This document shows positions 7,098-37,916 of a DNA stretch of 64,000 bases, piece by piece. Source of the DNA: Hemileia vastatrix (lineage: Eukaryota > Basidiomycota > Pucciniomycetes > Pucciniales > Zaghouaniaceae); the NCBI GenBank assembly GCA_030280995.1, contig JASXTE010000001.1, positions 3,036,001 through 3,100,000 of the forward strand. The letters run 5' to 3'. The notes beneath the pieces were generated by a model, which ran no database searches, had not been told where the DNA came from, and saw only the letters and a program-made list of their open reading frames with translations. Position 1 is the first letter of the stretch; the number at the start of each line of letters is the position of its first letter. A program made the translations under genes and the position numbers.

Positions 7098-7138
<41 letters not shown>

Positions 7139-7658: not shown

Positions 7659-7764
7659 TGTCAGCCAGGCTGTACTAAAAGCCCAGTAATTATTATATAA
7701 GACCTGTGAATAAAATTAAAATATTTTATAAGCAAAAAAGGATGCTTCTTTGACTCTTAAATGT

Positions 7765-8852: not shown

Positions 8853-8898
8853 CCGTAATTCTAAAGATATAAATTATAATAATATTTAAAATTACCTC

Positions 8899-11651: not shown

Positions 11652-11655
11652 ACAT

Positions 11656-15599: not shown

Positions 15600-15855
15600 C
15601 AGGGGCTGATTGCTCTAATGTTGTAATCTCTCCTCAGGATGAGATCCCGGATTGCAATAGGTCAGCTCACTTGGAGATAATTCAAGTGGATTCTCAATTA
15701 TTTTCTGTTAATATTACTTTGGAGTGCAAATACGTTATGGACTTTTCTATATGTTTATTGGATTTACCCGGTTGTTCTATTAAATTTAAAAACGGTGAAA
15801 AAGGCAAAATGGGCCAAATTAGGTTGGATAAAAATTGGAAGGGTATGTTTTGTGA

Positions 15856-16660: not shown

Positions 16661-19600
16661 AACTTTCTTTACGGGTGATTTACTGTTGGATAAGGGAAGA
16701 AAAGGTGTAGGAAAATCTGTTTATAAATTAGACGAGGGAAAGGAGAAAAGGGTAAAATTTAAAAATGAAATAAAAATTTTTTCTAATTTTTCTTATTCTG
16801 ATTCTGGCGATGAAGAAGATTCATTTGATGAAAGTTTTAATGGCGATACAAAAGAAAATCTTTTACCTCAAGTTTATTTAGATGTGGACGCAGCCAAATA
16901 TAAGAAGGTAGCAAATAAAGTTCGACCTATTAATGAACCGCTACCTGCTGAATTAAATCCACCTTTGAGAAGACCAAGGTTATCAAGAGATCCTTATGAA
17001 AGTCCCTTGGTAAAGAATCCGCCTGAATTTTCTGAGACGTCAAGAATCACTTTTGAGAGACTGGGTGTTGTTAATTTTGGACCTGATGGTTGGTTGTCTG
17101 GAGAAGAGAAGAAGTTGTTGTTGGATGTGATGGTCAAGCAAGAGAAGGCCATTGCTTTTGTAGAAGAGGAGAGGGGTGTGTTGAAGCATTCCTATGGGGA
17201 GCCTTACAAGATTCCTGTGGTATGTCATGAACCGTGGCAGCAGAAACCGATTCCTATTCCGGCTGCATTGAAAGAAGCTTATATCGAAGTTGTCAGAGAA
17301 CGGATACGCACTGGACTGTATGAGCAATCAACGTCAAGTTATTCTAGTCCGGTATTTTGTATCAAGAAACCGAATGGCAAGCTTAGAGTTGTTCATGATC
17401 TTAGGGAATTAAATAGGGTTACAATAAAGGATGCTGGGATACCACCTAGTGCTGAGGAGTTTGTTGAAGCGTTTGCAGGGAGAGTGTGTTATGGTTTAGG
17501 AGATATTATGGGTGGATATGATGAGAGAGAGTTACATCCGGACTCAAGGCCTCTCACTACATTCGATACGCCACTTGGACACTTACAGTTAACAAGATTA
17601 CCTCAAGGTGCAACAAATTCGGTTGCAGTTTATCAAGCTCAGATGGCTTGGATCCTTCAAGATGAAATTCCACAATATGCTGGAATCTTTATAGATGATG
17701 GAGGAATTAAGGGACCAACAACCGACTATGATAACCAGGTGTTGGAAGAGAATCCGGGGATACGCAAATTTATTTGGGAGTTTGCAATTACTTTAGAAAG
17801 AATCTTGTTTCGAATTGAAGAGGCTGGCTTAACTATTTCAGGTTGAAAATTTTCATGTTGTGTTCCAGCCTTAGAAATATTAGGCCATGTGGTATGTAGA
17901 GAGGGTAGGATTATGTCCAAGAAGAAAGTTAACAAAATTCAGTCCTGGCCAAGACCCAAGAATACGACCGAAGTTAGAGGGTTTTTAGGCGTTTGTGTAT
18001 ATGTTAGAATGTTTATCAAGGACTTTTCTTCATTGGCAGCTCCATTGAGACGGTTAACGAGAAAGGATGCAGACTGGGAGTGGGATGAAGAGTGTGAGAA
18101 GGCGTTTGTGAAGTTGAAGGAGGTTGTAGGGAAGGATTTAGTCCTGCACAAGTTAGATTATGGAAAAGATGCTGGCAGAATTTATTTAGCAGTTGATTCA
18201 AGTCAGGTTGCAGCTGGGGCGGTTTTGTCTCAGATGGATAAAGCTGGTTACATCAGGCCAGTTAGGTATGAATCTGTAGTATTTACTGAGGTCGAATCAA
18301 GATATTCTCAACCAAAATTGGAATTATGTGGTGTGGCTAAAATACTGAAGAAACTTCAGCATATTTTGTGGGGGCAACATTTTGAGTTGCAAGTGGATGC
18401 GAAATCGTTAATCCAGATGATTAATTCCCCAAGTTTACCGAACGCACCCATGACGAGATGGGTAGCTTTTATTCAACATTTTTCATTTGATTTAGTTCAT
18501 AAGCCTGGCAAGACATTTACTATGCCAGATGGTTTATCAAGGAGACCACCCACTGAAGAAGATTCAGACTCAGAGGAGTTCGATGAAGATATACCTATTA
18601 TCAAAGCCAGCACTAAAGGAGCTGAAGACTTTCCATACCTCCCCCATGAGGTTAAACTGGCAGGACTATTGTGTTTAGATTATGATGATGATGACCTCCA
18701 CCAAGAGGATAAACTGGAAAATAGTTTTTATGTTAATAAAGGTGTTGGAAAAGGTGTAGATAAATTCGGCAGAGAGGAGGTAGGAGAAGATGTGGTGTAT
18801 GTAGAGGAAAATGGATTGGTAGTGTGGGATAGTAGTAAATTAAGGAATGGTGTATATGTTGGAGAATTAGAGAATTTAAATAAAAGGGTGGATAAAGAGA
18901 AAGAGGTATTTTCAAATACGGTTTACGAAGGATCCAAAGGTTCAGAAGAAAAACGTCAACATAGCTCGATTAAAGATTCGTTTAGGGGTCAACGATTATT
19001 GGCTCATTCATGTGCAGGTGATATTGGTGATAGAGAAGTCCCTATTGATGTTATATTAATCGATTTTCAAGATGAAGTCTGGGGTCAGACTGGTTTTTAT
19101 TTTTTGTTAGTCAAATATTTGTTGACTTTAGAGAGGCCAGAAGATTGTGAAGACGATGAATGGGTGGCTATCAAGAGGAAGTCATCTACGTTTTACCTAT
19201 CTGGTCGACGTTTAATGAGGAGGAGGTATCCAAATCCTCAAGTAGTTATAACTCAACAGAAGGGGCAAGAATTAGTTTTGAAATCACTGCATGAAGATCT
19301 CGGGCATAGAGGCGTTGGAGAAACATTTAGAAGAATTTCTGATCGATTTTGGTGGCCTGGCATGAAGATGGCTGTTAAACAGTGGGTTCAGTCATGCGAA
19401 GAATGTCAAAGACGAAGTTATTTAAGGCCAAAAGAACCTGGACGCGCGACTGGTGAATATACACTCTTTGGAAGAGTTAGTTTAGATGCCGTTCATATAA
19501 AAGAGGGACGGTATAAATATTTAATTGTGGCCAGAGATGATTTATCTGGTTGGGTAGAGGCAGCGCCTCTTATTAATTTAACTGCCAAAAATGTGGCAGA

Positions 19601-20105
19601 ATTTTTTTTGAATAATTGGGTATATAGGTATGGGGTGATGAAGTTGGTAACGGTAGATGGAGGTCCTGAATTTGGGACAGAGTTTAAAGAGGCCGTATTG
19701 AAAGTTGGATCAAAGGTTAGGGTAGCAACCCCATATTATCCTGAAGCTGAAGGCATGGTTGAAAGAGGGCATCAAGTTATTAAGGATGCTTTAGTTAAAA
19801 TGTGTGGGACAAGTGCCGAAAAGTGGAGGCACTATTTACCTTTAGTTTTATTTGCTGATCGAATCACTGCCAAAAGGACGACCGGATTTTCACCTTATGA
19901 ACTTGTTTTTGGACAGAAAGCAGTTTTACCGGTTGATTTAGAAGCTGAATCATATCTTGGAGTTGACTGGGACACGGTCAAAACTACTGAAGAATTATTG
20001 TGTGCAAGAATGATGCAGCTAGAAAAGAAAGAAGAATATTTAGAAAAGGCATATTCGCGGATGATGAAGATCCGAAATCAATCAGTTAGATATTGGGATG
20101 AGCGG

Positions 20106-21220
20106 TATGGTAAGGTAAACTCTTACAGTCGCCTTGCTGTAAGCAGAATCCGGAGGAGATATGTGGATTTAGCTGAAAACCCCGTCCTTCCAATAAAAAT
20201 AACAAAGTAGGTGTTCTAAATCACTAAGCTAACCAATCTACTTGGATCTGATTGATAAAAATAATTAACGCTTATTGAGATTAAATGATCGTGGCTGTTG
20301 ATAAAGAAATACTGATAACAACAATTAAGGTGTACCAGTGAAAGATCTGAAAAGATTGACTTTTATGTTTTTATAATAATTTTAATTTTTATGAGACAGC
20401 AATAATCAAGTCCCAGTGAAGAAGACCTTTCTAAAGATACCCTGTATGAAGTGTTATTTAAATTGTTGAATTGTATTTCTAAAATGTTATGTAAGAATAA
20501 TAAATGTTATAAGGGTATTACAAGTTATTTTAATTTGTTGAGTAATAAAAAATGAGACCGTGGTGGTTAAAGATTAAGCTGTATGATGTGTCCCCTCTCT
20601 CAATTTCGAGTTTGAGAAGCGCTTAAGTATTCCTAGTCACGTGCCTAAATTTTCCCCTCCAGAGCTCTTCCAGAGTCAATCCGGAGCCCGTACGGAGTCC
20701 GTACGGAGCCGGAACGGAGTCCGTACGGAGTCGAAACGGAGTCCGTCCGGACTTCCGGACTCAATTTAGAACCTTAGAACCATAATAAAAAATCTAGAAA
20801 AATTACACATAATAGAACTACTTCCCCTTTACATACCAAACTAATTTTCGTAGTCTGCGCAGCTCTAATTACCCCGTGAAAATTCATCAAAGTTAAGTAA
20901 TTTTTGAAAACGTAAATATTTCTATAAAACTTTAAAATTCATTTAAAAATTTAAGAAAAATAGTAAAAATTCTGGGAAAATTTCCCAAGGTTCTTGAGTA
21001 ACTCGACTTGATACTTATAAATTTTCAGACCGTAAAAATAAGTTTTCTCCGTAAAATAAATTGTATTTGTGTAGGCATTCGCTCGTGACCAATTTCTTCA
21101 TATTTTAAACTCCAATAAATTAAATAAAACCCTTTTATAAAAAATAATAACACCAATCTTGCATGCCGTGATAACTCCATTTACATACTTAGGTGCCGTA
21201 CTAAACTTTAGGCTACCACA
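20106..21220 (-). repeat. 3' LTR of element B
   Basis: 1115 bp, inverted relative to A's LTRs. Compared with the 5' LTR (31225-32382) it lacks a 16-base segment between direct AAAATAAT copies, has a shorter CGG/CCG block and carries scattered substitutions. The adjoining sequence 21221-21230, read on the minus strand, is GGAGGGAGGA, the polypurine tract. Confidence 0.93.
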
Positions 21221-21269
21221 TCCTCCCTCCAATCGAGAATGTCCCCATTCTTATAACTTTGCATAAGTG

Positions 21270-21302
21270 GTTGAGAAATTCCAAAAGAATTATCTTATCT
21301 AA
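21270..21302 (+). pseudogene. Remnant of antisense gene 2 in element B (last codons only)
   Basis: Eleven codons including the stop read VEKFQKNYLI. They correspond to the end of the gene at 35942-36635 in element A, VEQFQRNYLF. Everything upstream in that gene is missing. The junction fits a deletion between the GTTGAACA copies that flank the missing part in A. This shows B's ancestor carried the gene. Confidence 0.7.
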
Positions 21303-21888
21303 TAAAATAATTTGATAAATTTGTTTTAGCTGGTCTTCTTATAAATCTTTATAATAAAAACGTTCTTTCTTCTTCTCTGGCTTGATATAACATAAAATAA
21401 AATAAAATAAATCTTGTGATGATTCCACTACTGAGAGCAAGGTTTGAATCCCTTCAGACTCCCATATACCAGTCTTCCTTCTTGTCACAGCATTGAGAGA
21501 GTGGATCTTCCTATGAGCCGAATACTCCTGATTCCAACCTCATAGGGCCCCCCACTGAGCCGAATTCTATGATTCCAATCTCGCCATAAGGTCCTCCAAG
21601 CTTCACACCAAAAAAAATGGCCTAACTATGAGGCACTAAAAAAAATCATTCCCTAAAATCCAACTACCATCCTAACTTCTGATTCCTTCATCACAATTTT
21701 CAAACTTTGCTATACAGCAAACCCATAAAATACTTTTGCCAGGCTTCCAATAATAATTTTAACTTTAGACCATGTTAAAGCGCCACAAATTTTACCTAAT
21801 TAACCATTATGCTTTCTTTAGCATCATCACCACTTAAAGTTTTAACCTCCTAAAGCTTTCAGCACCCAATTCCAGAAATAATTGAATA

Positions 21889-22931
21889 GCCAGTTTAGAG
21901 TCTTAGTGGACAGTGATAAATTAAAAGATTGAATTGAGTTATCCAAACAAGATTGACATTCCAATTTAAAGTCTTGGTAGACCAAACATATAATCGATTG
22001 CCAGTTTATGGTCTTGGTGGACCAAAGATCGTTTAGGTGCATAAATAACTTGTTAATTTCCTAAGTAAGGCCTAGGCTTGACCAAAGATTGAATAAATTT
22101 GATAATCCAATTTAATATCATAGTGGACCAAACATTTGATCGACAAGTAATCCAGTATAAGGCCATAGTGGTCCAATGAATGTTGAATTATCCTGCAGAT
22201 ATTAATTTTCCAGTTTAAAGTCATAGTGGACTAAACAATGAATGAACTACCAGTTTAAAGTCATGGTGGACCAAACATTTAATCGATAAGAAATCCAGTT
22301 TAAGGTCATGGTGGACCCAACAGCTTGATAACAGTCCAGTTTAAGGTCTTGGTGGACCTAACATTTGATAACACTCCAGTTTAAGGTCATGGTGGACCTA
22401 ACATTTGATTTATATATAAAAAAAATCGTCTCCAAAAATATCCATAAAATCTTGAACATCCTTGAAATTCAGTTTAAAGTCTTGAAGGACTAACAGCTCC
22501 AATATAAAATCTTTAATGAGAGTCTTGAAAATTAGCCAGTTTAAAGTCTTGGAGGACTAACAGATCCAAAATACGTGTAAAAACCTTAAAGAACGTCTTG
22601 AAGAGTAGCCAGTTTAAAGTCTTGGAGGACTAACAGCTCCAATATAAAATTTTTAATGACAGTCTTGAAAATTAGCCAGTTTAAAGTCTTGGAGGACTAA
22701 CAGCTCCGAAATTCGTATAAAACCCTTAAGGAAAGTCTTGAACAGTAGCCAGTTTAAAGTCTTGGAGGACTAACAGATCCAAAATAGGTATAAAAAAACC
22801 TAAAAGAACGTTTTGAACAGTAGCCAGTTTAAAGTCTTGGAGGACTAACAGATCCAAAATAGGTATAAAAAAACCTAAAAGAACGTTTTGAACAGTAGCC
22901 AGTTTAAAGTCTTGGAGGACTAACAGATGTC
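21889..22931 (-). repeat. Array of stem-loop plus TAAACTGG motifs, element B
   Basis: About seventeen copies of a 22-23 bp motif, here seen inverted as CCAGTTTAAAGTC followed by TTGGAGGACT and similar. Copies between 22530 and 22931 form a tandem of roughly 66-76 bp units. Those at 21889-22400 are spaced 40-70 bp with variable linkers. In element sense each is GGTC or AGTC, a CC(A/T)CCAA-like loop, GACC or GACT, then T-N-TAAACTGG. I see no coding role in this stretch. Confidence 0.85.
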
Positions 22932-23040
22932 TTGAAGTAAAATCCCATTGGTATTGAGTTCTCCTAGACCCTGTTTCCTGTCTAAACTAAATGAATAAAG
23001 CTAAAAAGAATGAAAACTAAAAAAAAATAAAACTGAGAAA

Positions 23041-23235
23041 TATAATAATTTTGATTTAATTAATTAATTTATTTTATTTTATTATTTTATTTTTATTTAT
23101 TTTATTATTTTATTTTTATTTATTTATTTTATTTTATTTTATTTTTATTATTTTATTTTTATTTTTTATTTTATTTTATTTTTATTTTTATTTTTTTTTA
23201 TTTTATTTTTTTTATTTAATTTTAATTTTAATTTT
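23041..23235. repeat. TTTTA-rich low-complexity tract in element B
   Basis: About 195 bases almost entirely of T and A in TTTTA and TTTAT units. Element A has the complementary type of tract at the same place in the element (33540-33690), so it is a feature of the family rather than a local accident. Confidence 0.85.
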
Positions 23236-23390
23236 GTTTTTAATTTAAAATAAAAGATTTTAGAAAAGATAGTTTTTGAAATAAAAGTTAAAATATAATT
23301 TTTGAAGAAAGATAAAAGAATTTGAAAAGAAAGATAAAAAAAGTACTAAAATAAAATTTTAAAATAAAATTTTAAAAGATGCCCCCCGGC

Positions 23391-23842
23391 CATTTGATGA
23401 GCCGTACCCTCGACATCATACCCACATCCAAGTGCAACTTGATGTGGTTACACAATTTTTAGAAATTGAAAAGAAAAGAAAATAAATGAAAGTTTTTAGA
23501 AGATAATTTTTATAATGATGATCACTGGGTGGGCTCCCTCCAATTTATAAAAATGATTAGAGACCACCAGTGAGCATCACCTTTACAATAATTCATAATA
23601 TATATTAAAGAAAAGAAATCACAATCTAACATAAAAAAAATCAAAAACAAAATAAAATAAATAAAAAAAATCTTGAATCCGGCGTTGAGAGCGGTGTCTC
23701 TTGATTTGTTCCAGTTTATAGTCTTAGTGGACTTCCTAAAATTAAAAGACAAAGCCAGGATTCAACTAGAAACAGGGAAAATTTTGGAAACGAACATTAT
23801 GGGGTAATTGTGTATAGAGCAGCCAGCCCATCAATTACCCCC
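23391..23842 (-). other. Conserved non-coding block with two strong hairpins, element B
   Basis: This block matches 32965-33420 of element A. One hairpin has 10-bp arms GGGGTAATTG and CAATTACCCC (23801-23810 and 23832-23841). A second is CACATC, CAAGT, GCA, ACTTG, ATGTG at 23423-23446. It lies between the pol stop and the low-complexity tract. It could be an RNA-structure element; function unknown. Confidence 0.6.
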
Positions 23843-24089
23843 ACACTTGCCAATATTAAATTAAGAAGGTTCCCCTGTGAACACTTCTTCCAATAAATTT
23901 AAAAATTTTTCCAACACTATCTTCACCCATATTTTAAGAATTTTTAATTTTGAAAATTTTCAATGAAGGTTTTCTTGCATTTCGTTATGTTTCATCACAG
24001 TTTCGTCGCCCATATGCAGTGTAATGATAGTAAAGTATTTTTGATAAAAATAAGAAGATAGTTTATACTCGTTGCAGAGGAATCCATAA

Positions 24090-24365
24090 AATTTCGTAGA
24101 TATCATAGTTTATCCTCATTTCGGAGGTATAAATTTAATAAAAGTCATTAAAATTGTAGTTTATCCTCATTTCGGAGTTGATAAAATTTAAGAAATTTCA
24201 TAGTTTATCCTCATTGCGGAGGAATCCGTAAAATTTCATCAATATCATAGTTTATCCTCATTGCGGAGGAATCCATAAAGTTTCATTGATATCATAGTTT
24301 ATCCTCATTGTGGAGGATCCATAAATTTAAGAAGTTTCATAGTTTATCCTCATTGCGGAGGAAGA
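24090..24365 (-). repeat. Tandem copies of the CCTCCGCAATGAGG stem-loop after pol, element B
   Basis: Seven or so copies of a roughly 40-57 bp unit containing, in element sense, CCTCCGCAATGAGG then ATAAACTATG. The first copy overlaps the last codons of pol, which read LRNEDKL before the stop. Element A has three copies at 32630-32745. Confidence 0.88.
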
Positions 24366-27300
24366 CTTCGGCACTCCTGGTGCCTCTAGGATAGAACCGT
24401 TTCACTTGATTGGCCGCTACCCTCTTCTTTAATACTACTCCATCCAACTCTTCTAGCACATATGAACCGCCGGAAACTTGCTCCTTGATTTTATACGGTC
24501 CATTCCACCTATCTGCAAACATTTTTCCCCACTGACTTTCCAAACTCCTATTATACACCAGGACCATATCACCTGGGTTCAAAGGTTTCCTTAATCGATG
24601 TGCCAACCGCTCATCCCAATATCTAACTGATTGATTTCGGATCTTCATCATCCGCGAATATGCCTTTTCTAAATATTCTTCTTTCTTTTCTAGCTGCATC
24701 ATTCTTGCACACAATAATTCTTCCGTAGTTTTGACCGTGTCCCAGTCAACTCCAAGATATGATTCAGCTTCTAAATCAACCGGTAAAACTGCTTTCTGTC
24801 CAAAAACAAGTTCATAAGGTGAAAATCCGGTCGTCCTTTTGGCAGTGATTCGATCAGCAAATAAAACTAAAGGTAAATAGTGCCTCCACTTTTCAGCACT
24901 TGTCCCACACATTTTAACTAAAGCATCCTTAATAACTTGATGCCCTCTTTCAACCATGCCTTCAGCTTCAGGATAATATGGGGTTGCTACCCTAACCTTT
25001 GATCCAACTTTCAATACGGCCTCTTTAAACTCTGTCCCAAATTCAGGACCTCCATCTACCGTTACCAACTTCATCACCCCATACCTATATACCCAATTAT
25101 TCAAAAAAAAATTCTGCCACATTTTTGGCAGTTAAATTAATAAGAGGCGCTGCCTCTACCCAACCAGATAAATCATCTCTGGCCACAATTAAATATTTAT
25201 ACCGTCCCTCTTTTATATGAACGGCATCTAAACTAACTCTCCCAAAGAGCGTATATTCACCGGTCGCGCGTCCAGGTTCTTTTGGCCTTAAATAACTTCG
25301 TCTTTGACATTCTTCGCATGACTGAACCCACTGTTTAACAGCCATCTTCATGCCAGGCCACCAAAATCGATCAGAAATTCTTCTAAACGTTTCTCCAACG
25401 CCTCTATGCCCGAGATCTTCATGCAGTGATTTCAAAACTAATTCTTGCCCCTTCTGTTGAGTTATAACTACTTGAGGATTTGGATACCTCCTCCTCATTA
25501 AACGTCAACCAGATAGGTAAAACGTAGATGACTTCCTCTTGATAGCCACCCATTCATCGTCTTCACAATCTTCTGGCCTCTCTAAAGTCAACAAATATTT
25601 GACTAACAAAAAATAAAAACCAGTCTGACCCCAGACTTCATCTTGAAAATCGATTAATATAACATCAATAGGGACTTCTCTATCACCAATATCACCTGCA
25701 CATGAATGAGCCAATAATAGTTGACCCCTAAATAAATTTTTAATTGAGCTATGTCGACGTTTTTCTTCTAAACCTTTGGATCCTTCGAAAACCGTATTTG
25801 AAAATACCTCTTTCTCTTTATCCACCTTTTTATTTAAATTCTCTAATTCTCCAACATATACACCATTCCTTAATTTACTACTATCCCACACTACCAAACC
25901 ATCTTCCTCTACATACACCACATCTTCTTCTACCTCCTCTCTGCCGAATTTATCTACACCTTTTCCAACGCCTTTATTAACATAAAAACTATTTTCCAGT
26001 TTATCCTCTTGGTGGAGGTCATCATCATCATAATCTAAACACAATAGTCCTGCCAGTTTAACCTCATGGGGGAGGTATGGAAAGTCTTCAGCTCCTTTAG
26101 TGCTGGCTTTGATAATAGGTATATCTTCATCGAACTCTTCTGAGTCTGAATCTTCTTCAGTGGGTGGTCTCCTTGATAAACCATCCGGCATAGTAAAAGT
26201 CTTGCCAGGCTTATGAACTAAATCAAACGAAAAATGTTGAATAAAAGCTACCCATCTCGTCATGGGTGCGTTCGGTAAACTTGGGGAATTAATCATCTGG
26301 ATTAACGATTTCGCATCCACTTGCAACTCAAAATGTTGCCCCCACAAAATATGCTGAAGTTTCTTCAGTATTTTTGCCACACCACATAATTCCAATTTTG
26401 GTTGAGAATATCTTGATTCGACCTCAGTAAATACTACAGATTCATACCTAACTGGCCTGATGTAACCAGCTTTATCCATCTGAGACAAAACCGCCCCAGC
26501 TGCAACCTGACTTGAATCAACTGCTAAATAAATTCTACCAGCATCTTTTCCATAATCCAACTTGTGCAGGACTAAATCCTTCCCCACAACCTCCTTCAAC
26601 TTCACAAACGCCTTCTCACACTCTTCATCCCACTCCCAGTCTGCATCCTTTCTTGTTAACCGTCTCAATGGAGCTGCCAATGAAGAAAAGTCCTTAATAA
26701 ACATTCTAACATATACACAAACGCCTAAAAACCCTCTAACTTCGGTCGTATTCTTGGGTCTTGGCCAGGACTGAATTTTGTTAACTTTCTTCTTGGACAT
26801 AATCCTACCCTCTCTACATACCACATGGCCTAATATTTCTAAGGCTGGCACACAACAGGAAAATTTTGAACCTGAAATAGTTAAACCAGCCTCTTCAATT
26901 TGAAACAAGATTCTTTCTAAAGTAATTGCAAACTCCCAAATGAATTTGCGTATCCCGGGATTCTCTTCCAACACCTGGTTATCATAGTCGGTTGTTGGTC
27001 CCTTAATTCCTCCATCATCTATAAAGATTCCAGCGCATTGTGGAATTTCGTCTTGAAGGATCCAAGCCATCTGAGCTTGATAAACTGCAACCGAATTTGT
27101 TGCACCTTGAGGTAATCTTGTTAACTGTAAACGTCCAAGTGGCGTATCGAATGTAGTGAGAGGCCTTGAGTCCGGATGTAACTCTCTCTCATCATATCCA
27201 CCCATAATATCTCCCAAACCATAGCACACTCTCCCTGCAAACGCTTCAACAAACTCTTCAGCACTAGGCGGTATCCCAGCATCCTTTATTGTAACCCTAT

Positions 27301-28435
27301 TTAACTCCCTAAGATCATGAACAACTCTAAGCTTGCCATTCGGTTTCTTGATACAAAATACCGGACTAGAATAACTTGACGTTGATTGCTCATACAGTCC
27401 AGTGCGTATCCGTTCTCTGACAACTTCAATATAGGCTTCTTTTAATGCAGCCGGAATAGGAATCGGTTTCTGCTGCCACGGTTCATGACATACCACAGGA
27501 ATCTTGTAAGGCTCCCCATAGGAATGCTTCAACACACCCCTCTCCTCTTCTACAAAAGCAATGGCCTTCTCTCGCTTGACCATCACATCCAACAACAACT
27601 TCTTCTCTTCTCCAGACAACCAACCATCAGGTCCAAAATTAACAACACCCAGTCTCTCAAAAGTGATTCTTGACGTCTCAGAAAATTCAGGCGGATTCTT
27701 TACCAAAGGACTTTCATAAGGATCTCTTGATAACCTTGGTCTTCTCAAAGGTGGATTTAATTCAGCAGGTAGCGGTTCATTAATAGGTCGTACTTTATTT
27801 GCTACTTTCTTATATTTGGCTGCGTCCACATCTAAATTAACTTGAGGTAAAACATTTTCTTTTGTTTCGCCATTAAAACTTTCATCAAATGAATCTTCTT
27901 CATCGCCAGAATCAGAATAAGAAAAATTAGAAAAATATTTTATTTCATTATTAAATTTTACCCTTTTCTCCTTTCCCTCGTCTAATTTATAAACAGATTT
28001 TCCAACACCTTTGCTTCCCTTATCCAACATTAAATCACCTGTAAAGAAAGTTGGCAGTTTAACCTCTTGTTGGAGGACCGGAATTGAATTTTCACAAAAA
28101 TTATTTTTTTGAGTTTTAATTATACTGAGATTTTTAATTTGGTTTTGATGAGATTTTCGCAGTTTACCCTCTTGCTGGAGGTCCATAAACATACCCTTCC
28201 AATTTTTATCCAACCTAATTTGGCCCATTTCGCCTTTTTCACCGTTTTTAAAATTAATAGAAAAACCGGGTAAATCCAATAAACATTTAGAAAAGTCCAA
28301 AACGTATTTGCACTCCAAAGTAATATTAACAGAAAATAATTGAGAATCCACTTGAATTATCTCCAAGTGAGCTGACCTATTGCAATCCGGGATCTCATCC
28401 TGAGGAGAGATTACAACATTAGAGCGATCAGCCCC
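24337..28435 (-). pseudogene. Element B pol (RT, RNase H, integrase), broken in two places
   Basis: It is colinear with A's pol but with a short linker (two repeat units) and no B-type interruption, so the integrase C-terminus is complete. RT carries AGIFIDDGG. RNase H, the HHCC zinc domain and the D-D-E core are present, and the GPY/F-like module (RWNGPYKIKEQV) ends near 24400. Lesions are a TGA at 25507-25505 where A has CGA (a C-to-T change), and a run of nine T, in element sense, at 25111-25103 where A has eight, shifting the frame in integrase. The reading frame is otherwise open from 28435. It would be made by -1 frameshifting from gag. Confidence 0.93.
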
Positions 28436-28437
28436 TG

Positions 28438-31047
28438 CTACCCCAAAAAATGAGGGCTTTCATCCCTTTCCAACAAACATAATTCACCAGAAGCCGTCCG
28501 TTTAATATGCCGCTTCTTGGTGCAAACACAACACTGGCACAGAGTAGTAATCCCTGGCCGTGTTTCCCAACCTTCATCTCCAGGAGGCGCTAACCGCATA
28601 TGTAACCTCCGCATATCTTCACCAGTGATCTCCAAACTAATCCCCATGCCAGCTTGATACCCTATCCTGGCCTCAAAATCCATCAAAAAAGGACCACCAA
28701 GAACAGTTTTGACTGCTCCTCTGGCCACATAAAAGTGAACCTTACCAACAGATCCACCAATGCCTAACCTGACATGCTCAGCTGTACCCATCAGCTCTGT
28801 TGCATGCCCTCCAATACCTCTGAGGTTTCCCCCAGTTCCACTTTTAATTGGCAAGCCTATACTCGTCGCTTGCTCCAATGAAATTAAATTAATTTGAGAC
28901 CCTGAATCGACCAAGGCCTTTACTTCTTTACCGTTAAGAGTTACCACCAGGTAACCCAGGGGAGCGGAAAAATGTGTATCTACATCTTCCCCAAACTTTT
29001 CAGCATTTTCACAAATATATTCCACCTCTCCAGTGGAAACCCGACGCCTCGTCAAATGCTTCTTTTGCTTTTCAGCAAGCGCCGGACTAATTGTAAATAA
29101 CTCCCCCAAAGATAAGGGAATCTGAAGTTGATTCACCCTATTCAAAACTGCGTCCATCGCATTAGCTTGACCGGAAACTACTGGCCGCTCATACTGGACC
29201 TTTGATTTAACAACCTTGGCCCTGGGTACCTCTTGAGGTCCAACCGAGCCATCTTCACCTCCCATAATAACATCTTCACTTTCTATAACCCTAACTCCGT
29301 CACCAGCTTCTTGCACTAATCCTGATCCATCGCTAGTCCTTCTTACACCCTCCATTGGGATGGGACCGCTAAAACTTGGTCTGGGTAGAGACGCCAACGG
29401 TACGTCCTCCTCAGAATCCGAATCATCATCTGGCATAGGCTCACCATTTAAATCAAACTTGCCATAACTAGGGGGCCCCATATCAGCAATCCCCTTCTGC
29501 ATTTTATATAATTCGTCCTTAGAGTAAGGGTTCAATTTGTTGGCGGCAGTTTGAGCACTAGAATTCTTGTCCTTAGAGTAAGGGTTCACTTTGTTATTGG
29601 CCTTGCCAGGATTAGCCCTCAATTGGCTCTGAATGCTACTTTTCGCCTTAGTAGCAGCTGCTCTTCTAGCAGCATTAACATCGTATTCGCCAGCCATACA
29701 GCTACCCTCCACCTGGGCAACCGTCGCCAGCTCTAAACCACCAAAAGAAGTAGAAAATGTGGCTTTACTGACCTCTTTCTCCTTGCCCTTGTCAGCTTTA
29801 CCACCATTACCGTTACCATTTTTGCCACTCTTGGCATTAACATCTTCATCCGTCACCTCTTCAAATCTGGCTCTCCTTTCAGCCGTTAAACTTCTTCTGA
29901 CCAAATCAGAAGGAGACTGTCCATCACTGGGCTTGATGAACGAACCATCGGGAAATTTATAAACTTTACCATCAAATAAAACTCGCCCAGCATCCATATC
30001 CTTATCAAGAGCAAAACAAACTGTTGCTCTGTGACCCCTCCTATTGCAATAGGAGCACACCTTTGGCTCATCATAGCCACCTCTATATCCATTACCACCA
30101 TTCCCACCATTTCTCCCATTGCCTGGGAAGCGGTTACCGTTGTTATTGCCATTATAATTTCGACGTTCATAACCTCTGGACTGATAAGAAGTCGACGTCG
30201 ACAAAGAAGCGATTGGGGCCTTATTGGCCTTCTGGGTTTCTTGAACAAATATTTTTAATTGTTTTGTTAAATCGGCCAGGTGATCGACCATCTTATTATC
30301 TACATTACCCTCAACTTTAGCAGCAGGTAATCCCATTTGAGCCTTCTTGGCCTCCTGGGCTTTGACCATAATATCGTTATTTTCGGCCAAAACTTCGCTA
30401 ACCTTGCTAACATATTGAGTGCAAGACTCTTGATATTTGTCCAACGCCAATAACTTGAGATGGGCCTGAATGTTCTCTTTGATAACCTCCAGAGCCGGCA
30501 GTTTCTGCTCACCATTAGGCAGTTCCTTCATCAAATCTTTTCTTGAAAGATCCTTCAAGACGTCCATTCGAATATCCCTGCTGCATGCTGACCAAAACAA
30601 ATCTTTTGCTTGGTTCTCATGCACTAACTCGTCCACCAGTATGAGATATTCCACCACTTCATCAAACTGAACACAGAGCTTTTTGAAGTCAGCCATAGAA
30701 GAAACACCACCTTTTGCTTGCCAGTCTCCAACAATTTTATTGAGGTCCATCATAGTAAACCTAACACCCCATCTATCAATCATAGCTTTAGAAAGCTTAA
30801 CCCAATCCTTGTCCTTGAATGCCTGCATAGCAATAACCTCTTTTTCCACCTCCCTATCGGCAATAAAAAATCTAACTTGCTTCACCATGTCCACATGAGA
30901 AGCACCGTCAACAGCAGCAGCAGCTTCATACCTGCTAATGAACCATTTAACCTCCTCCCCATCAAACTTTGGGCCATCCCAAGAAACAATTCTAACTGAG
31001 GGAGTAAGAGGGTTAGAAGATCCAGAAGCAACAGCAGAAGAAGACAT
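28438..31047 (-). CDS. Gag-protease polyprotein of element B
   Basis: 869 codons, intact, differing from the gag-protease of A at only a small number of residues (for example KFDGEE for KIDGEE near the start, SKNGNG for SENGNG later). The CCHC knuckle CSYCNRRGHRATVC and the protease motif VKALVDSGSQINLIS are both preserved. The stop TAG follows the TTTTTTG heptamer as in A. Because pol is broken while gag-protease is intact in both copies, these elements could still supply Gag particles. Confidence 0.93.
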   Translation of the reverse strand: MSSSAVASGSSNPLTPSVRIVSWDGPKFDGEEVKWFISRYEAAAAVDGASHVDMVKQVRFFIADREVEKEVIAMQAFKDKDWVKLSKAMIDRWGVRFTMMDLNKIVGDWQAKGGVSSMADFKKLCVQFDEVVEYLILVDELVHENQAKDLFWSACSRDIRMDVLKDLSRKDLMKELPNGEQKLPALEVIKENIQAHLKLLALDKYQESCTQYVSKVSEVLAENNDIMVKAQEAKKAQMGLPAAKVEGNVDNKMVDHLADLTKQLKIFVQETQKANKAPIASLSTSTSYQSRGYERRNYNGNNNGNRFPGNGRNGGNGGNGYRGGYDEPKVCSYCNRRGHRATVCFALDKDMDAGRVLFDGKVYKFPDGSFIKPSDGQSPSDLVRRSLTAERRARFEEVTDEDVNAKSGKNGNGNGGKADKGKEKEVSKATFSTSFGGLELATVAQVEGSCMAGEYDVNAARRAAATKAKSSIQSQLRANPGKANNKVNPYSKDKNSSAQTAANKLNPYSKDELYKMQKGIADMGPPSYGKFDLNGEPMPDDDSDSEEDVPLASLPRPSFSGPIPMEGVRRTSDGSGLVQEAGDGVRVIESEDVIMGGEDGSVGPQEVPRAKVVKSKVQYERPVVSGQANAMDAVLNRVNQLQIPLSLGELFTISPALAEKQKKHLTRRRVSTGEVEYICENAEKFGEDVDTHFSAPLGYLVVTLNGKEVKALVDSGSQINLISLEQATSIGLPIKSGTGGNLRGIGGHATELMGTAEHVRLGIGGSVGKVHFYVARGAVKTVLGGPFLMDFEARIGYQAGMGISLEITGEDMRRLHMRLAPPGDEGWETRPGITTLCQCCVCTKKRHIKRTASGELCLLERDESPHFLG

Positions 31048-31205
31048 CCCAATAAGTAAAGAAAAGCGTTAACAATCGATAAAATAACAAGCCTCTTTCA
31101 GGCCAATAACAAAAATCCAATTAGAGTTCCAGAAAATAAGCCTCTTGCAGGCTAATAACGTTCTTGATCCAAGTAAGTCTTTTAAAGAAAGCTAGAGAAA
31201 TCGAA

Positions 31206-31222
31206 CCCCACGTTGGGCGCCA
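31206..31222 (-). other. Primer-binding site of element B
   Basis: CCCCACGTTGGGCGCCA on the + strand, the inverse of the site in A, with the same two-base spacer to the LTR at 31225. Confidence 0.85.
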
Positions 31223-31224
31223 AC

Positions 31225-32382
31225 TATGGTAAGGTAAACTCTTACAGTCGCCTTGCTGTAAGCAGAATCCGGAGGAGATATGTGGATTTAGCTGAAAACC
31301 CCGTCCTTCCAATAAAATAACAAAATGGGAACTCTAAATCACTAAGCTAACTAATCTACTTGGATCTGATTGATAAAAATAATGAAACTCTAAAATAATT
31401 AACGCTTATTGAGATTTGAATAAAAGTGGCTGTTGATAAAAGAAATACTGATAACAACAATTAAGGTGTACCAGTGAAAGATCTGAAAAGATTGACTTTT
31501 ATGTTTTTATAATAATTTGAGTTTTTATGAGACAGCAATAATCAAGTCCCAGTGTTGAAGACCTTTCTAAAGATACCCTGTATGAAGTGTTATTTAAACT
31601 GTTGAATTGTATTTCTAAAATGTTATGTAAAAAATAATAATGTTATAAGGGTATTACAAGTTATTTTAATTTGTTGAGTAATAAAAAATGAGACTGTGGT
31701 AGTTAATGATTAAGCTGAATGATGTGTCCCCCCTCTCAATTTCGAGTTTGAGAAGCGCTTAAGTATTCCTAGTCACGTGCCTAAATTTTCCCCTACAGAG
31801 CTCTTCCAGAGTCAATCCGGAGCCCGTACGGAGTCCTACGGAGCCGAAGCGGAGTCCGAACGGAGTTCGTACGGAGTCGAAGCGGAGTCCGAACGGAGTC
31901 CGTCCGGACTTCCGGACTCAATTAGAACCTTAAAACTATAATAAAAAATCTAGAAAAATTACACATAATAGAGCTACTTCCCCTTTACATACCAAACTAA
32001 TTTTCGTAGTCTGCGCAGCTCAAATTACCCCGTGAAAATTCATCGAAGTTAAGTAATTTCCGAAAACGTAAATATTTCTATAAAACTTTAAAATTCATTT
32101 AAAAATATAAGAAAAATAGTAAAAATTCTGGGAAAATTTCCCAAGGTTCTTGAGTGACTCGACTTAATACTTATAAATTTTTCAGACCGTAAAAATAAGT
32201 TTTCTCCGTAAAATAAATTGTTTTCGTGTAGGCATTCACTCGTGACCAATTTCTTCATATTTAAAACTCAAATAAATTAAATAAAACCCTTTTATATATA
32301 AAAAAATAATAACGCCAATCTTGCACGCCGTAATAACTCCATTTACATATTTAGGTGCTGTACTAAACTTTAGGCTACCACA
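31225..32382 (-). repeat. 5' LTR of element B
   Basis: 1158 bp, inverted, ending GGCTACCACA before GCGG. It differs from B's 3' LTR and from both A LTRs at several sites, including the CGG/CCG block (31820-31920), where several CCGTACGG units have become CCGAACGG or CGAAGCGG. Confidence 0.93.
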
Positions 32383-32656
32383 GCGGTTGGCACATCGATT
32401 AAGGAAACCTTTGAACCCAGGAGATATGGTCCTGGTGTATAATAGGAGTTTGGAAAGTCAGTGGGGAAAAATGTTTGCAGATAGGTGGAATGGACCGTAT
32501 AAAATCAAGGAGCAAGTTTCCGGCGGTTCATATGTGCTAGAAGAGTTGGATGGAGTAGTATTGAAGAAGAGGGTAGCGGCCGATCAAGTGAAACGGTTCT
32601 ATCCTAGAGGCACCAGGAGTGCCGAAGTCTTCCTCCGCAATGAGGATAAACTATGA
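32383..32656 (+). pseudogene. C-terminal integrase segment of element A, cut off by element B
   Basis: After the GCGG duplication the reading continues RLAHRLRKPLNPGD, then WGKMFADRWNGPYKIKEQV and RVAADQVKRFYPRG, ending LRNEDKL and a TGA at 32654-32656. This is the GPY/F-like domain after the integrase core. It is the missing end of the pol that stops at 20105, which proves B inserted into A. Confidence 0.93.
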
Positions 32657-33720
32657 CATTTATCAAATTTTATGGATTCCTCCGCAATGAGGATAAACTA
32701 TGATATCTACGAAATTTTATGGATTCCTCCGCAACGAGTATAAACTATCTTCTTTTTTTTTATCAAATAATTTACTATCATTACACTGCATATGGGCGAC
32801 GAAACTATGATGAAACTTAACGAAATTCAAGAAGACCTTCTTAGAAATTTTCAAAAACTTAAAATTCTTAAAATATGGTTGAAGATAGTGTTGGAAAACT
32901 TTTTAAAATTTATTGGAAGAAGTGTTCACAGGGGAACCTTCTTAATTTAATATTGGCAAGTGTGGGGGTAATTGATGGGCTGGCTGCTCTATACACAATT
33001 ACCCCATAATGTTCGTTTCCAAAATTTTCCCTTTTTCTAGTTGAATCCTGGCTTTGTCTTTTAATTATAGGAAGTCCACTAAGACTATAAACTGGAACGA
33101 ATCAAGAGACACCGCTCTAAACGCCGGATTCAAGATTTTTTTTATTTTGTTTTTGATTTTTTATGTTAGATTGTGATTTCTTTTCTTTAATATATATTAT
33201 GAATTAATGTAAAGGTGATGCTCACTGGTGGTCTCTAATCATTTTTATAAATTGGAGGGAGCCCACCCAGTGATCATCATTATAAAAATTATCTTCTAAA
33301 AAACTTTCATTTATTTTATTTTCTTTTCAATTTCTCAAAATTGTGTAACCACATCAAGTTGCACTTGGATGTGGGTATGATGTCGAGGGTACGGCTCATC
33401 AAATGGCCGGGGGGCATCTTTTAAAATTTTATTTTAAAAATTTTATTACTTTTTTTATCTTTCTTTTCACATTCGTTTATCTTTCTTTAAAAATTAAATT
33501 TTAACTTTTATTTCAAAACTATCTCTTTTAAATTAAATTAAAAAAAAAAAATAATAATAATAATAAAATAAATAAAAATATAAAATAAAAAATAAAAATA
33601 AAAAAAAAAAAAATAAATAAAAAAATAAATAAATAAATAAATAATAAAAAAATAAAAAATAAAAATAAAATAAAATAAAATAAATAAAAGGTATTTTAGT
33701 TTTAGGTAGTTTAGATGTTT
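32657..33720 (+). other. Non-coding region of A after pol: hairpins, stem-loop motifs, A-rich tract
   Basis: It contains repeated CCTCCGCAATGAGG-type motifs up to 32745, a 10-bp-stem hairpin at 32965-33005, one stem-loop plus TAAACTGG near 33070, the 24-base hairpin at 33350-33373, and an A-rich low-complexity tract at 33540-33690. The hairpins are preserved in B. No open frame of interest. Confidence 0.7.
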
Positions 33721-33774
33721 ATATTTTATTTTTCAAACATTATTCAAGAAAGCTACATACCAGGAAGAACACCA

Positions 33775-34788
33775 TCAAGGGTTGTTATCTTTTGAAGAAT
33801 TGAAATTAGAAAATTTAGAAGGACCTTGATTGATTTCCTGGGATTCGAATCTTATTTCACGGTCATGATAGTGTTGAAGCCAGTTGGCTATTTTGAAAAG
33901 GTCTCTTAACGGTTGCTCTCTCATCCAAGATTCTGATCTATCAAAGGGCGGGTATCGTTGGAAATAAGCGATAAGGTTATTAAAATTAGCAAAAAGCTTT
34001 TCAGACACTAGGTGAATCGGAACTCTAGGGAAGCTTGGATTAGGTTCTGGTAGCTCATAAGCTGAATATGAAATTGGAGAACCGGTGGATGCTTATCAAA
34101 TTAAAATATCAGCAAATTAAAACCTGAAGATTAAGAAAATAAAAAGAGACAACTAACCTGTGTCAACACTATCATGATCATAGATAAATGGCTTACTTGG
34201 TAATGGAGTGGGATTTTTTATGTTTAGAAAAGGATTTTTTATTTTTGATAGATGAGGAGGACTGGTGTTGGATTTGGTGTTTGAAGTAGATGTTATGGGC
34301 CTTTTGGATGATACAAGAGAAGATGAAGACTGCTGGCTATTATAGGACCTTTTGTGCTTCAAGATGTTGGAAGAAGGAGAAGAATTGTTAGAAGGTTGAA
34401 GCATGGCCCTGGGAGCAGCAAGAGTTCTTGGGGGACTAGCAGCAAGTCTAGATTGGAGAGAAGGACCCAGAGGATTAGGTGATGGAGAAAGATTTAAATA
34501 GGCTGATGGAGAAAAAGGTATGGGATCTTTAGAGGTTGATGGAAAAGGGGGTGGAGTAGAAGGTGAAGAAGAAGGAAGAGGTTTGCAGAAGGCGGCGAAG
34601 CTAGTAGCAGTGATGGGGAAAGAACCACAGTTCAAGCCAGAACATTTTCTTTTCTTCTCATAGCAGGATAAACAGGCCCTGTTATAAGTGTGCTTTTGCC
34701 AGTTAAAAGAGAAGATACATTCCCTATGGGTGAAGGCACAGTATTTGCAAGATTGATCAGCTGAAGCAATGAAGTCAGAAGGTTTCAT
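33775..34788 (-). CDS. Antisense cargo gene 1 of element A: Cys-rich, Zn2Cys6-like protein, two exons
   Basis: Exon 1 is 34788-34158 and exon 2 is 34091-33775. The 66-base intron starts GTTAGT and ends ATAAG. The spliced frame is 948 bases, 315 residues. Residues about 14-50 hold SCKYCAFTHREC, a 14-residue spacer, then CLSCYEKKRKC and one more Cys. The spacing C-X2-C-X6-C-X14-C-X2-C-X6-C is close to the fungal Zn2Cys6 binuclear cluster (usual linker 5-12), with basic residues in the second half. A long Ser/Pro-rich, basic linker follows. The C-terminal exon has a compact stretch (NLIAYFQRYPPFD, LQHYHDREIRFE). It lies opposite to A's genes, downstream of pol, and is absent from B. A DNA-binding role is inferred; it could also be a Gag-like or structural zinc protein. 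Confidence 0.65.
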
Positions 34789-34882
34789 CTTGTTAGGAGA
34801 TATTTTTTTGAAGAAGAAAACTTGAAACTAGGATGAAGAAAGCTGGTGGCAAAATCTGGGTTCAAGGATAGAGAAGTTGTTA

Positions 34883-35350
34883 GGTCCACCAAGACCTTAA
34901 ACTGGACTATTATCAAGTGTTGGGTCCACCATGACCTTAAACTGGATTTCTTATCGATTAAATGTTTGGTCCACCATGACTTTAAACTGGTAGTTCATTC
35001 ATTGTTTAGTCCACTATGACTTTAAACTGGAAAATTAATATCTGCAGGATAATTCAACATTCATTGGACCACTATGGCCTTATACTGGATTACTTGTCGA
35101 TCAAATGTTTGGTCCACTATGACATTAAACTGGATTATCAAATTTATTCAATCTTTGGTCAAGCCTAGGCCTTACTTAGGAATATATCAAGATATTTATG
35201 CACTTAAACGATCTTTGGTCCACCAAGACCATAAACTGGCAATCGATTATATGTTTGGTCCACCAAGACTATAAACTGGAATGTCAATCTTGTTTGGATA
35301 ACTCAAATCAATCTTTTAATTTATCACTGTCCACTATGACTCTAAACTGG
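34883..35350 (+). repeat. Array of stem-loop plus TAAACTGG motifs, element A
   Basis: About ten copies of GGTCCACCAAGACC-type or AGTCCACTATGACT-type stem-loops, each followed by T-N-TAAACTGG, spaced 38-70 bp. They lie between the two antisense genes. The linkers share short words such as AAATGTTTGG. One or two copies are decayed (35068, and 35155-35180). Confidence 0.88.
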
Positions 35351-35941
35351 TTATTCAATTATTTCTGGAATTGGGTGCTGATAAGCTTTAGGAGGTTAAA
35401 ATTTTAGGTGGTGATGATGCTAAAGAAAGCATAATGGTTAACTAGGGAAAATTTGTGGCGCTTTAACATGGTCTAAAGTTAATATTATTATTGGAAGCCT
35501 GGCAAAAGTATTTTATGGGTTTGCTGTAAAGCAAAGTTTGAAAATTGTGATGAAGGAATCAGAAGTTAGGATGGTAGTTGGATTTTAGGGAATGATTTTT
35601 TTAGTGCCTCATAGTTAGGCCATTTTTTTTTTTGGTGTGAAGCTTGGAGGACCTTATGGCGAGATTGGAATCATAGAATTCGGCTCAGTGGGGGGCCCTA
35701 TGAGGTTGGAATCAGGAGTATTCGGCTCATAGGAAGATCCACTCTCTCAATGCTGTGACAAGAAGGAAGACTGGTATATGGGAGTCTGAAGGGATTCAAA
35801 CCTTGCTCTCAGTAGTGGAATCATCACAAGATTTATTTTATTTTATTTTATGTTATATCAAGCCAGAGAAGAAAGAAAACATCATTTATGTTGAAAGTTT
35901 AAGAAGACCAAGCAAAAACAAAATTTTATCAAGTTATACTG

Positions 35942-36635
35942 TTAGAAAAGATAATTTCTTTGAAATTGTTCAACATCATTATCAAAGCTTTGCATTAAAA
36001 TTCTTCTTTTCATGAGGTCTTCATGGTTATTAGCTGGAGTTTCTTGAAAATAGGCCAGCATTTTTCGTTTCAACTCATTAGTAAAGTCAAGAAAAAGATA
36101 GCGATGAAAATTCGGGTAATGATTGATATAGTCCGTCTTCACTCTACCAACATCATCAGTGTTGGTTATTTCGACAGCTAGAAGTTCAAATATGTTATTA
36201 AGTCATAGGTTTAGTCAATTTTGATTAAAAGTTTTTTTTTAGTAAGATAAATAGGGTGTTACATTTAGAGCCAGGAAACATAGTCTCAGCAAAGTTAGTT
36301 GGGGGTACTGGTGTTATAGGATTAGGATCTTGTGAAGGCAAAATTAGGCCGGGATCCGCTGATGAAGATTGAACTTTTGAAGCTGTTTTTGATCTTATTC
36401 GTTTTAAGAAGACAGGAATTTTGGATCGCTTTTTAGAAGTTGAGGGATCAGGGAGAGCTGCTGGTCCTAAATATACGTTTGTTTTAGAAGGAACTATTGG
36501 CCGGTTACATTTGACTTTTTTCACACGGCATAAGTCGCAAGCTGTTCTGCCAGGAAGATTAGGGTTGGACATTAAACAAGGTACCTGGTATCGAGCGCAG
36601 AGTTCACATGGAGCGACAAGTTCTTTGGAAGACAT
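35942..36635 (-). CDS. Antisense cargo gene 2 of element A: Zn2Cys6-like protein, two exons
   Basis: Exon 1 is 36635-36263 and exon 2 is 36177-35942. The 85-base intron starts GTAACA and ends TTCTAG. The spliced frame is 609 bases, 202 residues. Residues about 9-42 read PCELCARYQVPC, a 12-residue spacer, then CDLCRVKKVKCNRP. This is C-X2-C-X6-C-X12-C-X2-C-X6-C, within the published limits of the Zn2Cys6 pattern, with the usual basic CRxKKxKC. A Ser/Pro/Lys linker follows, then an exon-2 domain (YINHYPNFHRYLFLDF, KRKMLAYFQETPAN). Exon 2 resembles gene 1 only in the LxAYFQ word. Transcription would start within about 125 bases of the 3' LTR and run against the element. B keeps only the last ten codons. 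The start is the first ATG upstream of the Cys cluster. Confidence 0.68.
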
Positions 36636-36748
36636 ATTGATGAGGATGAATTTTATAGTTGATTAAAGAAGATGGTGGTTGAAGGTTAAAGATGAATATT
36701 GTGTTCAACCACTTATGCAAAGTTTTAAGAATGGGGACATTCTCGATT

Positions 36749-36758
36749 GGAGGGAGGA
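36749..36758 (+). other. Polypurine tract of element A
   Basis: GGAGGGAGGA directly precedes the TGTGG of the 3' LTR, as expected for the plus-strand primer of an LTR retrotransposon. The same sequence borders B's 3' LTR. Confidence 0.85.
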
Positions 36759-37916
36759 TGTGGTAGCCTAAAGTTTAGTACGGCACCTAAATATGTAAAT
36801 GGAGTTATTACGGCGTGCAAGATTGGCGTTATTATTTTTTTTATAAAAAGGGTTTTATTTAATTTATTTGAGTTTTAAATATGAAGAAATTGGTCACGAG
36901 CGAATGCCTACACGAAAACAATTTATTTTACGGAGAAAACTTATTTTTACGGTCTGAAAAATTTATAAGTATTAAGTCGAGTCACTCAAGAACCTTGGGA
37001 AATTTTCCCAGAATTTTTACTATTTTTCTTATATTTTTAAATGAATTTTAAAGTTTTATAGAAATATTTACGTTTTCAAAAATTACTTAACTTTGATGAA
37101 TTTTCACGGGGTAATTAGAGCTGCGCAGACTACGAAAATTAGTTTGGTATGTAAAGGGGAAGTAGCTCTATTATGTGTAATTTTTCTAGATTTTTTATTA
37201 TGGTTTTTAGGTTCTAAATTGAGTCCGGAAGTCCGGACGGACTCCGTTTCGACTCCGTACGGACTCCGCTTTGACTCCGTACGGACTCCGTTCCGGCTCC
37301 GTACGGACTCCGTACGGGCTCCGGATTGACTCTGGAAGAGCTCTGGAGGGGAAAACTTAGGCACGTGACTAGGAATACTTAAGCGCTTCTCAAACTCGAA
37401 ATTGAGAGGGGGGGACACATCATACAGCTTAATCTTTAACCACCACGGTCTCATTTTTTATTACTCAACAAATTAAAATAACTTGTAATACCCTTATAAC
37501 ATTTATTATACTTACATAACATTTTAGAAATACAATTCAACAATTTAAATAACACTTCATACAGGGTATCTTTAGAAAGGTCTTCTTCACTGGGACTTGA
37601 TTATTGCTGTCTCATAAAAATTTAAATTATTATAAAAACATAAAAGTCAATCTTTTCAGATCTTTCACTGGTACACCTTAATTGTTGTTATCAGTATTTC
37701 TTTATCAACAGCCACTTTCTTTAAATCTCAATAAGCGTTAATTATTTTAGAGTTTCATTATTTTCATCAATCAGATCCAAGTAGATTGGTTAGCTTAGTG
37801 ATTTAGAATTCCCATTTTGTTATTTTTATTGGAAGGACGGGGTTTTCAGCTAAATCCACATATCTCCTCCGGATTCTGCTTACAGCAAGGCGACTGTAAG
37901 AGTTTACCTTACCATA
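36759..37916 (+). repeat. 3' LTR of element A
   Basis: 1158 bp, by eye identical to the 5' LTR at 11656-12813, including the CGG/CCG block (37224-37325). Followed by the ACAT target duplication. Confidence 0.95.

Follow-up and report, generated by a model that had tools for sequence, protein, structure and literature searches.

In Hemileia vastatrix, a Ty3/Gypsy long terminal repeat (LTR) retrotransposon, here called element A, carries two antisense frames between pol and its 3′ LTR, each beginning with a six-cysteine cluster. The element lies in a 64,000-nucleotide stretch of contig JASXTE010000001.1 (assembly GCA_030280995.1, positions 3,036,001 to 3,100,000 of the forward strand), referred to below as the window and numbered from its first letter. 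The two frames are probably spliced genes, likely paralogous, for small zinc-cluster-like proteins. The LTRs of the element hold a dense array of CGG and CCG triplets, and the best explanation of the findings as a whole, held tentatively and with slightly more doubt than belief, is that the antisense pair regulates the element through this array.

Element A is on the plus strand and is identified as Ty3/Gypsy by its LTRs, its target duplication, and the order protease, reverse transcriptase (RT), RNase H, integrase. The 5′ LTR (11656..12813, +; TGTGGTAGCC...TTACCATA) and the 3′ LTR (36759..37916, +) are identical in self-BLAST at 1158 of 1158 positions, with the target duplication ACAT directly before the former (11652-11655) and directly after the latter (37917-37920). 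Between them are a gag-protease open reading frame (ORF) of 869 amino acids (12990..15599, +), pol up to the insertion point of a nested second element, B (15557..20105, +), the end of pol past that insertion (32383..32656, +), and the 4.1 kb region from pol to the 3′ LTR (32657..36758, +) that holds both antisense genes. The zinc knuckle of gag was recognised by eye, and the aspartyl protease is a Pfam match made on the B copy. The remaining Pfam matches, obtained partly on the A copy and partly on that of B, are to RT (RVT_1, 40.4 bits on the B copy), RNase H, and integrase; in A, Integrase_H2C2 scores 70.3 bits (cut-off 25.5) and the integrase core, at 30.4 bits, is slightly below its cut-off of 32.6. 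The pol frame of A is also interrupted at 16460-16462 and 17844-17846, and that of B at 25505-25507 and about 25097-25131, therefore neither copy looks autonomous as assembled.

A search of a protein collection of 5.8 billion sequences with pol gave 130 relatives at E 1e-10 or better, 120 of them listed. Among the matches listed, ENA proteins without a name rank first (75% identity, 58% of the query covered), and the best with a name are from Puccinia striiformis (72% over 60%) and then Austropuccinia psidii (64% over 58%), followed by Phenoliferia and, more distantly, mushrooms and smuts. Judged by pol within this list, element A is closest to elements named from rust fungi. One near match (71%) carries a bacterial metagenome-assembled genome label, for which contamination is presumed.

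In a preliminary description of this DNA, two minus-strand, two-exon genes were placed between pol and the 3′ LTR, and their coordinates are confirmed here. Gene 1 (34788-33775, −) would encode 315 amino acids from a spliced frame of 948 bases, with exon 1 at 34158..34788, a predicted intron at 34092..34157, and exon 2 at 33775..34091. The intron is in phase 1, with 631 coding bases before it, the exon ending in CAG and the intron running GTTAGT...AAG. The cysteine cluster in exon 1 is followed by a Ser/Pro-rich linker, and exon 2 is predicted to form a helix-rich C-terminal part, its helices being of low confidence. Gene 2 (36635-35942, −) would encode 202 amino acids from 609 spliced bases, with exon 1 at 36263..36635, a predicted intron at 36178..36262, again in phase 1, after 373 coding bases (exon end AAT, intron GTAACA...TAG), and exon 2 at 35942..36177. 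The spliced lengths given in the preliminary description are correct, but the clean splicing that it noted is weak evidence by itself, as many GT-AG pairs keep the frame open: counting pairs 40-200 bp apart, and including those chosen, gene 1 has 19 and gene 2 has 4, and the pair kept for each gene is the one that gives the lengths first described. By eye, the donor of gene 1 is good and that of gene 2 is fair; the splice sites of both genes are plausible, not unique.

Frame length and codon use speak for both being genes. Among antisense ORFs the longest is that of gene 1, with 211 codons. In 2000 shuffles of the region no ORF came up to this length (mean 68, maximum 174), and in 5000 of its own stretch one did. 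The open frame of gene 2, 136 codons running into the intron, was reached in 5 of 5000 shuffles of its own stretch, and 7 of the 2000 region shuffles gave 137 codons or more. On the sense strand of the same region there is no ATG-initiated ORF of more than 69 codons. Of the three frames on the same strand, only frame 0 has codon choice like that of gag-pol (gene 1, z 4.4-4.8; gene 2, z 3.0-3.3). None of 204 control frames (900 nt) matched this preference for gene 1, and 3 of 300 (600 nt) did for gene 2, the controls being drawn from 4700-9400 and 38000-63000, outside A and B, where unrecognised coding sequence may be included. Some frames read on the opposite strand of the two genes also have fairly high values, with maxima of 3.4 (gene 1) and 2.9 (gene 2). 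Both antisense frames are probably genes, and probably spliced.

Lying between pol and the 3′ LTR with coding frames that oppose gag-pol, the two genes correspond to the aORF-3R class; that class also entails frames conserved in most copies, and the one further copy compared, B, has neither gene. A candidate antisense TATA-like site, a motif match only, lies in the 3′ LTR at 36840..36845 (−), 210 bp before the start of gene 2, and further matches are at 37060, 36967, and 36657, in an A/T-rich region where such matches carry no chance control. The possibility that the genes form a nested DNA transposon was rejected: the inverted repeats around gene 1, for example 33662-33685 with 35831-35854, consist of simple A/T-rich sequence, and no transposon-like ends are present among the 25 longest of the 80 inverted-repeat pairs in the region.

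As first described, both proteins start with a six-cysteine cluster, and that of gene 2 has the spacing C-x2-C-x6-C-x12-C-x2-C-x6-C. Gene 1 has C-x2-C-x6-C-x14-C-x2-C-x6-C, the middle loop being x14 in place of x12, and both were counted as having the spacing of the six-cysteine family. Against the PF00172 (Zn_clus) profile, the check suggested in the preliminary description, gene 2 passes with 24 bits (cut-off 21), its best stretch aligning residues 31-45 to profile positions 1-15 (one of two matched stretches), but gene 1 fails with 8.1 bits (E=4). A Pfam scan with an E limit of 10, in which the HMMER filters drop most matches above about 0.1, gave PF00172 as the sole family for either protein and no RNA-binding domain. 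In a PDB search, residues 29-88 of gene 2 matched Ppr1 (E 0.0081) and residues 31-46 matched Gal4 9-24, weakly (E 0.44).

The spacing fits the Zn2Cys6 label given earlier, but the order of the halves does not: the basic half, CDLCRVKKVKC in gene 2, comes second in both proteins, opposite to Gal4, and the Gal4-type order with the basic, DNA-reading half first is present in neither. These are therefore not ordinary Gal4-type domains. In position-by-position scoring of the halves, the second half of gene 2 scores 60 against the first half of Gal4 and 15 against its second, and the second half of gene 1 scores 31 and 20; the first half of gene 1 leans to the second half of Gal4 (23 versus 16). A lysine occupies the position of Gal4 Lys18 in both proteins, by the PDB-search alignment in gene 2 and by eye in gene 1. 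In Gal4, Lys18 contacts the guanines of CGG (PMC5559640). The proteins thus share the six-cysteine spacing with Gal4-type regulators, and CDLCRVKKVKC of gene 2 is near the CDICRLKKLKC of Gal4, whereas they are short (202 and 315 amino acids), have the basic half second, and include one, gene 1, under the family cut-off. Both are best called zinc-cluster-like, not proven Zn2Cys6 members.

Compared with each other, genes 1 and 2 give a BLASTP E of 0.017 as a single comparison. The alignment score of their first 60 residues was reached by 14 of 5000 shuffles, a similarity partly forced by the cysteines, and that of their second exons by 70 of 5000. Intron phase, layout, and alignment scores point to the two genes being old duplicates, on evidence that is suggestive, not strong.

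All four LTRs of A and B contain an 11-bp tandem array dense in CGG and CCG. In A it lies at 12122..12251 in the 5′ LTR, where there are 20 triplets in 130 bp, and at 37225..37354 in the 3′ LTR, where five CGG-N3-CCG and five CCG-N2-CGG pairs occur. Per 130 bp, the 5′ and 3′ LTRs hold 20 and 20 triplets in A and 18 and 17 in B, set against maxima of 10, 10, 12, and 8, respectively, in 300 shuffles of each; outside these LTRs no 130 bp of the window holds more than 8. In the 5′ LTR the array precedes gag-pol, and in the 3′ LTR it lies about 590-720 bp upstream of where gene 2 begins. A CACGTG box, seen by eye, is directly downstream of it (for example 37362-37367). The typical binding sites of Zn2Cys6 proteins are pairs of CGG triplets, which may be inverted, direct, or everted (PMC5559640). 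The array is therefore a candidate target, and only a candidate, of the antisense proteins, and its presence in the element's own LTRs would make self-regulation the simplest mechanism.

The window holds one further copy of the family, element B (20106..32382, −; LTRs 31225-32382 and 20106-21220), which is inserted in A, cutting it at 20105/32383, and is flanked on both sides by the target duplication GCGG (20102-20105 and 32383-32386). The target duplications of A and B are both 4 bp. Both antisense genes are missing from B, which aligns to A on either side of each. Self-comparison shows A 35988-36704 to be missing, with the last 45 bp or so of gene 2, at its 3′ end, retained and the join in a short TCAAC present at both ends in A. 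Because of this remnant and this join, loss of gene 2 in the line of B is more likely than its gain in the line of A. For gene 1, A 33690-34877 is replaced in B by other sequence (22364-23090) with a tandem array, which may reflect either loss in B or gain in A. The LTR array and the hairpins described below are both retained in B. Codon differences between A and B are 30 silent and 13 replacement in the 870 codons of gag, and 13 silent and 10 replacement in an RT-RNase H piece of 440 codons; for gag at least, these counts suggest constraint. The LTRs of B differ at 54 of 1112 aligned positions and those of its host element A are identical, so that the apparent age order is inverted; template switching, gene conversion, or an assembly error could explain this.

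The state of B bears on a first alternative, that the genes are passengers, host zinc-cluster-like genes captured in one lineage, without a role and being lost as in B. The absence of both genes there, one region gone at the shared TCAAC and the other replaced by tandem-repeat sequence, is what passengers would leave, as is the lack of relatives in the protein collection. However, two likely related genes with matching intron phase and cluster layout, placed where other families keep antisense accessory genes, are not readily explained by capture; the frames are still open, a candidate target array stands in the LTR, and the 3′ remnant in B means that gene 2 is no late gain of A. This alternative is considered unlikely, and is still to be taken seriously.

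A second and unexpected sequence feature of the family is a hairpin motif, consisting of a stem of 4, a loop of 6, a stem of 4, one base, and TAAACT followed by GG, GC, or AT. It occurs in the sense orientation, scattered in pol and in the region between pol and the 3′ LTR, spanning 15856-18718 and 32632-35351 (+), with 15 anchored sites inside pol of A (15856..18718, +) and an array between the two antisense genes (34878..35360, +). In the sense orientation, A has 27 TAAACT sites, 24 of them with a full stem in front, and B has 26, of which 23 have one; each element also has 13 antisense sites, none with a full stem, and one of 27 sites outside the elements has it. The base rate of such stems is about 3% per position. 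With a slightly wider anchor, all four pairs form at 48 of 58 hairpin sites. The stem types in the elements are CCTC/GAGG (25), AGTC/GACT (11), and GGTC/GACC (7), with the wobble forms GGTC/GACT (4) and TCTC/GAGG (1), and variation is mostly confined to the two outer pairs. In 26 distinct stem-loops the four pairs hold in 19, 25, 24, and 25; their total of 93 was reached by none of 2000 shuffles (maximum 86), a control that leaves relatedness among the copies in place. A known RNA family was rejected, since the three Rfam matches (E 0.23-0.95) are all below gathering scores. A conserved repeat of the pol protein was likewise rejected: of the 120 pol relatives listed, many of them matching just part of pol, one has the strict peptide, and the motif therefore looks family-specific. 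As to its role, one would naturally guess at a signal carried by the genomic RNA.

In a further alternative, the antisense proteins are accessory factors of another step, for example binding the hairpins of the genomic RNA for packaging or export, or guiding the integration complex inside the nucleus. That the motif is frequent, sense-oriented, and covarying, and flanks the genes, would fit. Yet the basic half of gene 2 looks like one that reads DNA, the hairpins also occur within pol and in B, where the genes are absent, and Pfam lists no RNA-binding domain; this alternative is decidedly unlikely. It could also be that antisense transcription itself matters, by supplying double-stranded RNA that feeds silencing of the element. 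This has been suggested for antisense transcripts of other elements (PMC7264820), and 823 antisense long non-coding RNAs on transposons are reported from powdery mildew (PMC10648671), but the frames, their codon use, and the two cysteine clusters would be left unexplained, which makes it improbable to a high degree. Finally, that chance open frames have been taken for genes is scarcely credible and was rejected on the length and codon-use controls, for although alternative splices are many and a few region shuffles reach the length of the gene 2 frame, none reaches the 211 codons of gene 1, and chance would not provide matched six-cysteine clusters at both frame starts or the PF00172 match of gene 2.

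For the preferred explanation, self-regulation by the antisense pair, the steps would be as follows. Gene 2, and perhaps gene 1, would be transcribed antisense from in or near the 3′ LTR, and both predicted introns would be spliced; as the preliminary description soundly argued, introns of antisense genes would not be lost when the element passes through RNA during transposition. The proteins would enter the nucleus via basic stretches such as KKRSKIPVFLKRIRSK of gene 2, recognised by eye, and would bind the CGG/CCG array of the LTRs through the Gal4-like basic half. They would then regulate the element itself, as activators or as repressors, and would act in trans, copies such as B keeping the cis sites without the genes. 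A more ambitious form of this explanation is doubtful: that the family has its own regulatory circuit, in which a duplicated antisense pair with a new, basic-half-last type of zinc cluster acts in trans on the 11-bp CGG arrays, the hairpins are a second cis system, and copies without the genes, such as B, are parasitic.

Several points weigh against self-regulation. Splicing, antisense transcripts, and DNA binding are all deduced from sequence, and the single other copy in the window has neither gene. Gene 1 is well under the PF00172 cut-off (8.1 versus 21 bits). With the basic half second, recognition of the Gal4 type is not to be taken for granted. In gene 2, the first half is nearer to the first half of Gal4 (24) than to the second (16), so that a plain swap of the Gal4 halves is certain for neither protein. 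Single-sequence structure models are poor, with a mean pLDDT of 61.1 for residues 1-62 of gene 2 and 56.6 for exon 2 of gene 1. No homologue of either protein was found among the 5.8 billion sequences, in a search able to find only relatives that share 5-residue words, unlike for pol, whose relatives the same collection does hold; transposon-borne genes may stay unannotated there, and the absence is therefore weak evidence. Nor were relatives confirmed for gene 2 exon 1 or the pol alignment in viral_contigs or genome_contigs, or for gag in viral_contigs, which carries little weight as these are viral and prokaryotic DNA collections.

Other features of the window lie outside A and B. A piece of a host gene at 2089-4632 (+) has GRAM, PH, and glycosyltransferase-28 domains by Pfam and resembles fungal sterol glucosyltransferases. 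At 9460-11280 (−) are the remains of a different Gypsy-like element, with Pfam matches to RT and RNase H and a weak integrase match below cut-off. Self-comparison also revealed a close array of direct and inverted repeats of about 83-85% identity at 48889-50603.

Antisense accessory genes recur in plant LTR elements and in at least one fungus, their function being open (PMC7264820; PMC11963269). In maize Grande (gene23) and rice RIRE2, an antisense accessory ORF lies between pol and the 3′ LTR, and the gene23 product is nuclear and its gene transcribed from a promoter upstream of it (PMC7264820). These are plant elements, unlike A, and the word 'zinc' does not occur in PMC7264820. The layout of Retand is closely parallel to that of A: antisense ORFs are present in every representative element and for the most part encode TRP28 proteins, for which DNA binding is predicted, about half have tandem repeats in the region between pol and the 3′ LTR, this region is 2.9-6.6 kb (4.1 kb in A), and a regulatory role has been proposed (PMC11963269). 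Retand is, however, a plant element whose usual domain is TRP28 (PF04195), matched by neither antisense protein here in Pfam at an E limit of 10, whereas A is fungal and its predicted spliced genes encode cysteine clusters.

The preliminary description was right that plant cases are known, but an antisense gene placed between pol and the 3′ LTR is already on record from a fungus, brtn of the Boty-like Gypsy elements of Botrytis cinerea (Zhao et al. 2011, as cited in PMC7264820, PMC8365987, and PMC4227169). PMC7264820 lists it among the antisense genes in this position and also names Sclerotinia sclerotiorum. Boty thus shares with A a fungal LTR element with an extra antisense gene in the same place; by its descriptions it is set apart by another host and a gag-pol with a chromodomain (PMC4227169), and A has two genes. 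No fungal LTR element with antisense zinc-cluster genes, and no fungal self-regulatory circuit of the kind predicted here, was found in literature searches, which gave incomplete lists, mostly without subscription papers. An antisense pair of zinc-cluster-like genes in such an element is claimed as new, weakly.

Element A supplies a protein together with its candidate target: the one has a Gal4-like basic half, and the other is a CGG array within the LTR of the same element. If the explanation proposed here is true, self-regulation of a retrotransposon by its antisense genes would be directly testable, and a zinc cluster of reversed layout would widen the range of fungal DNA-binding domains.

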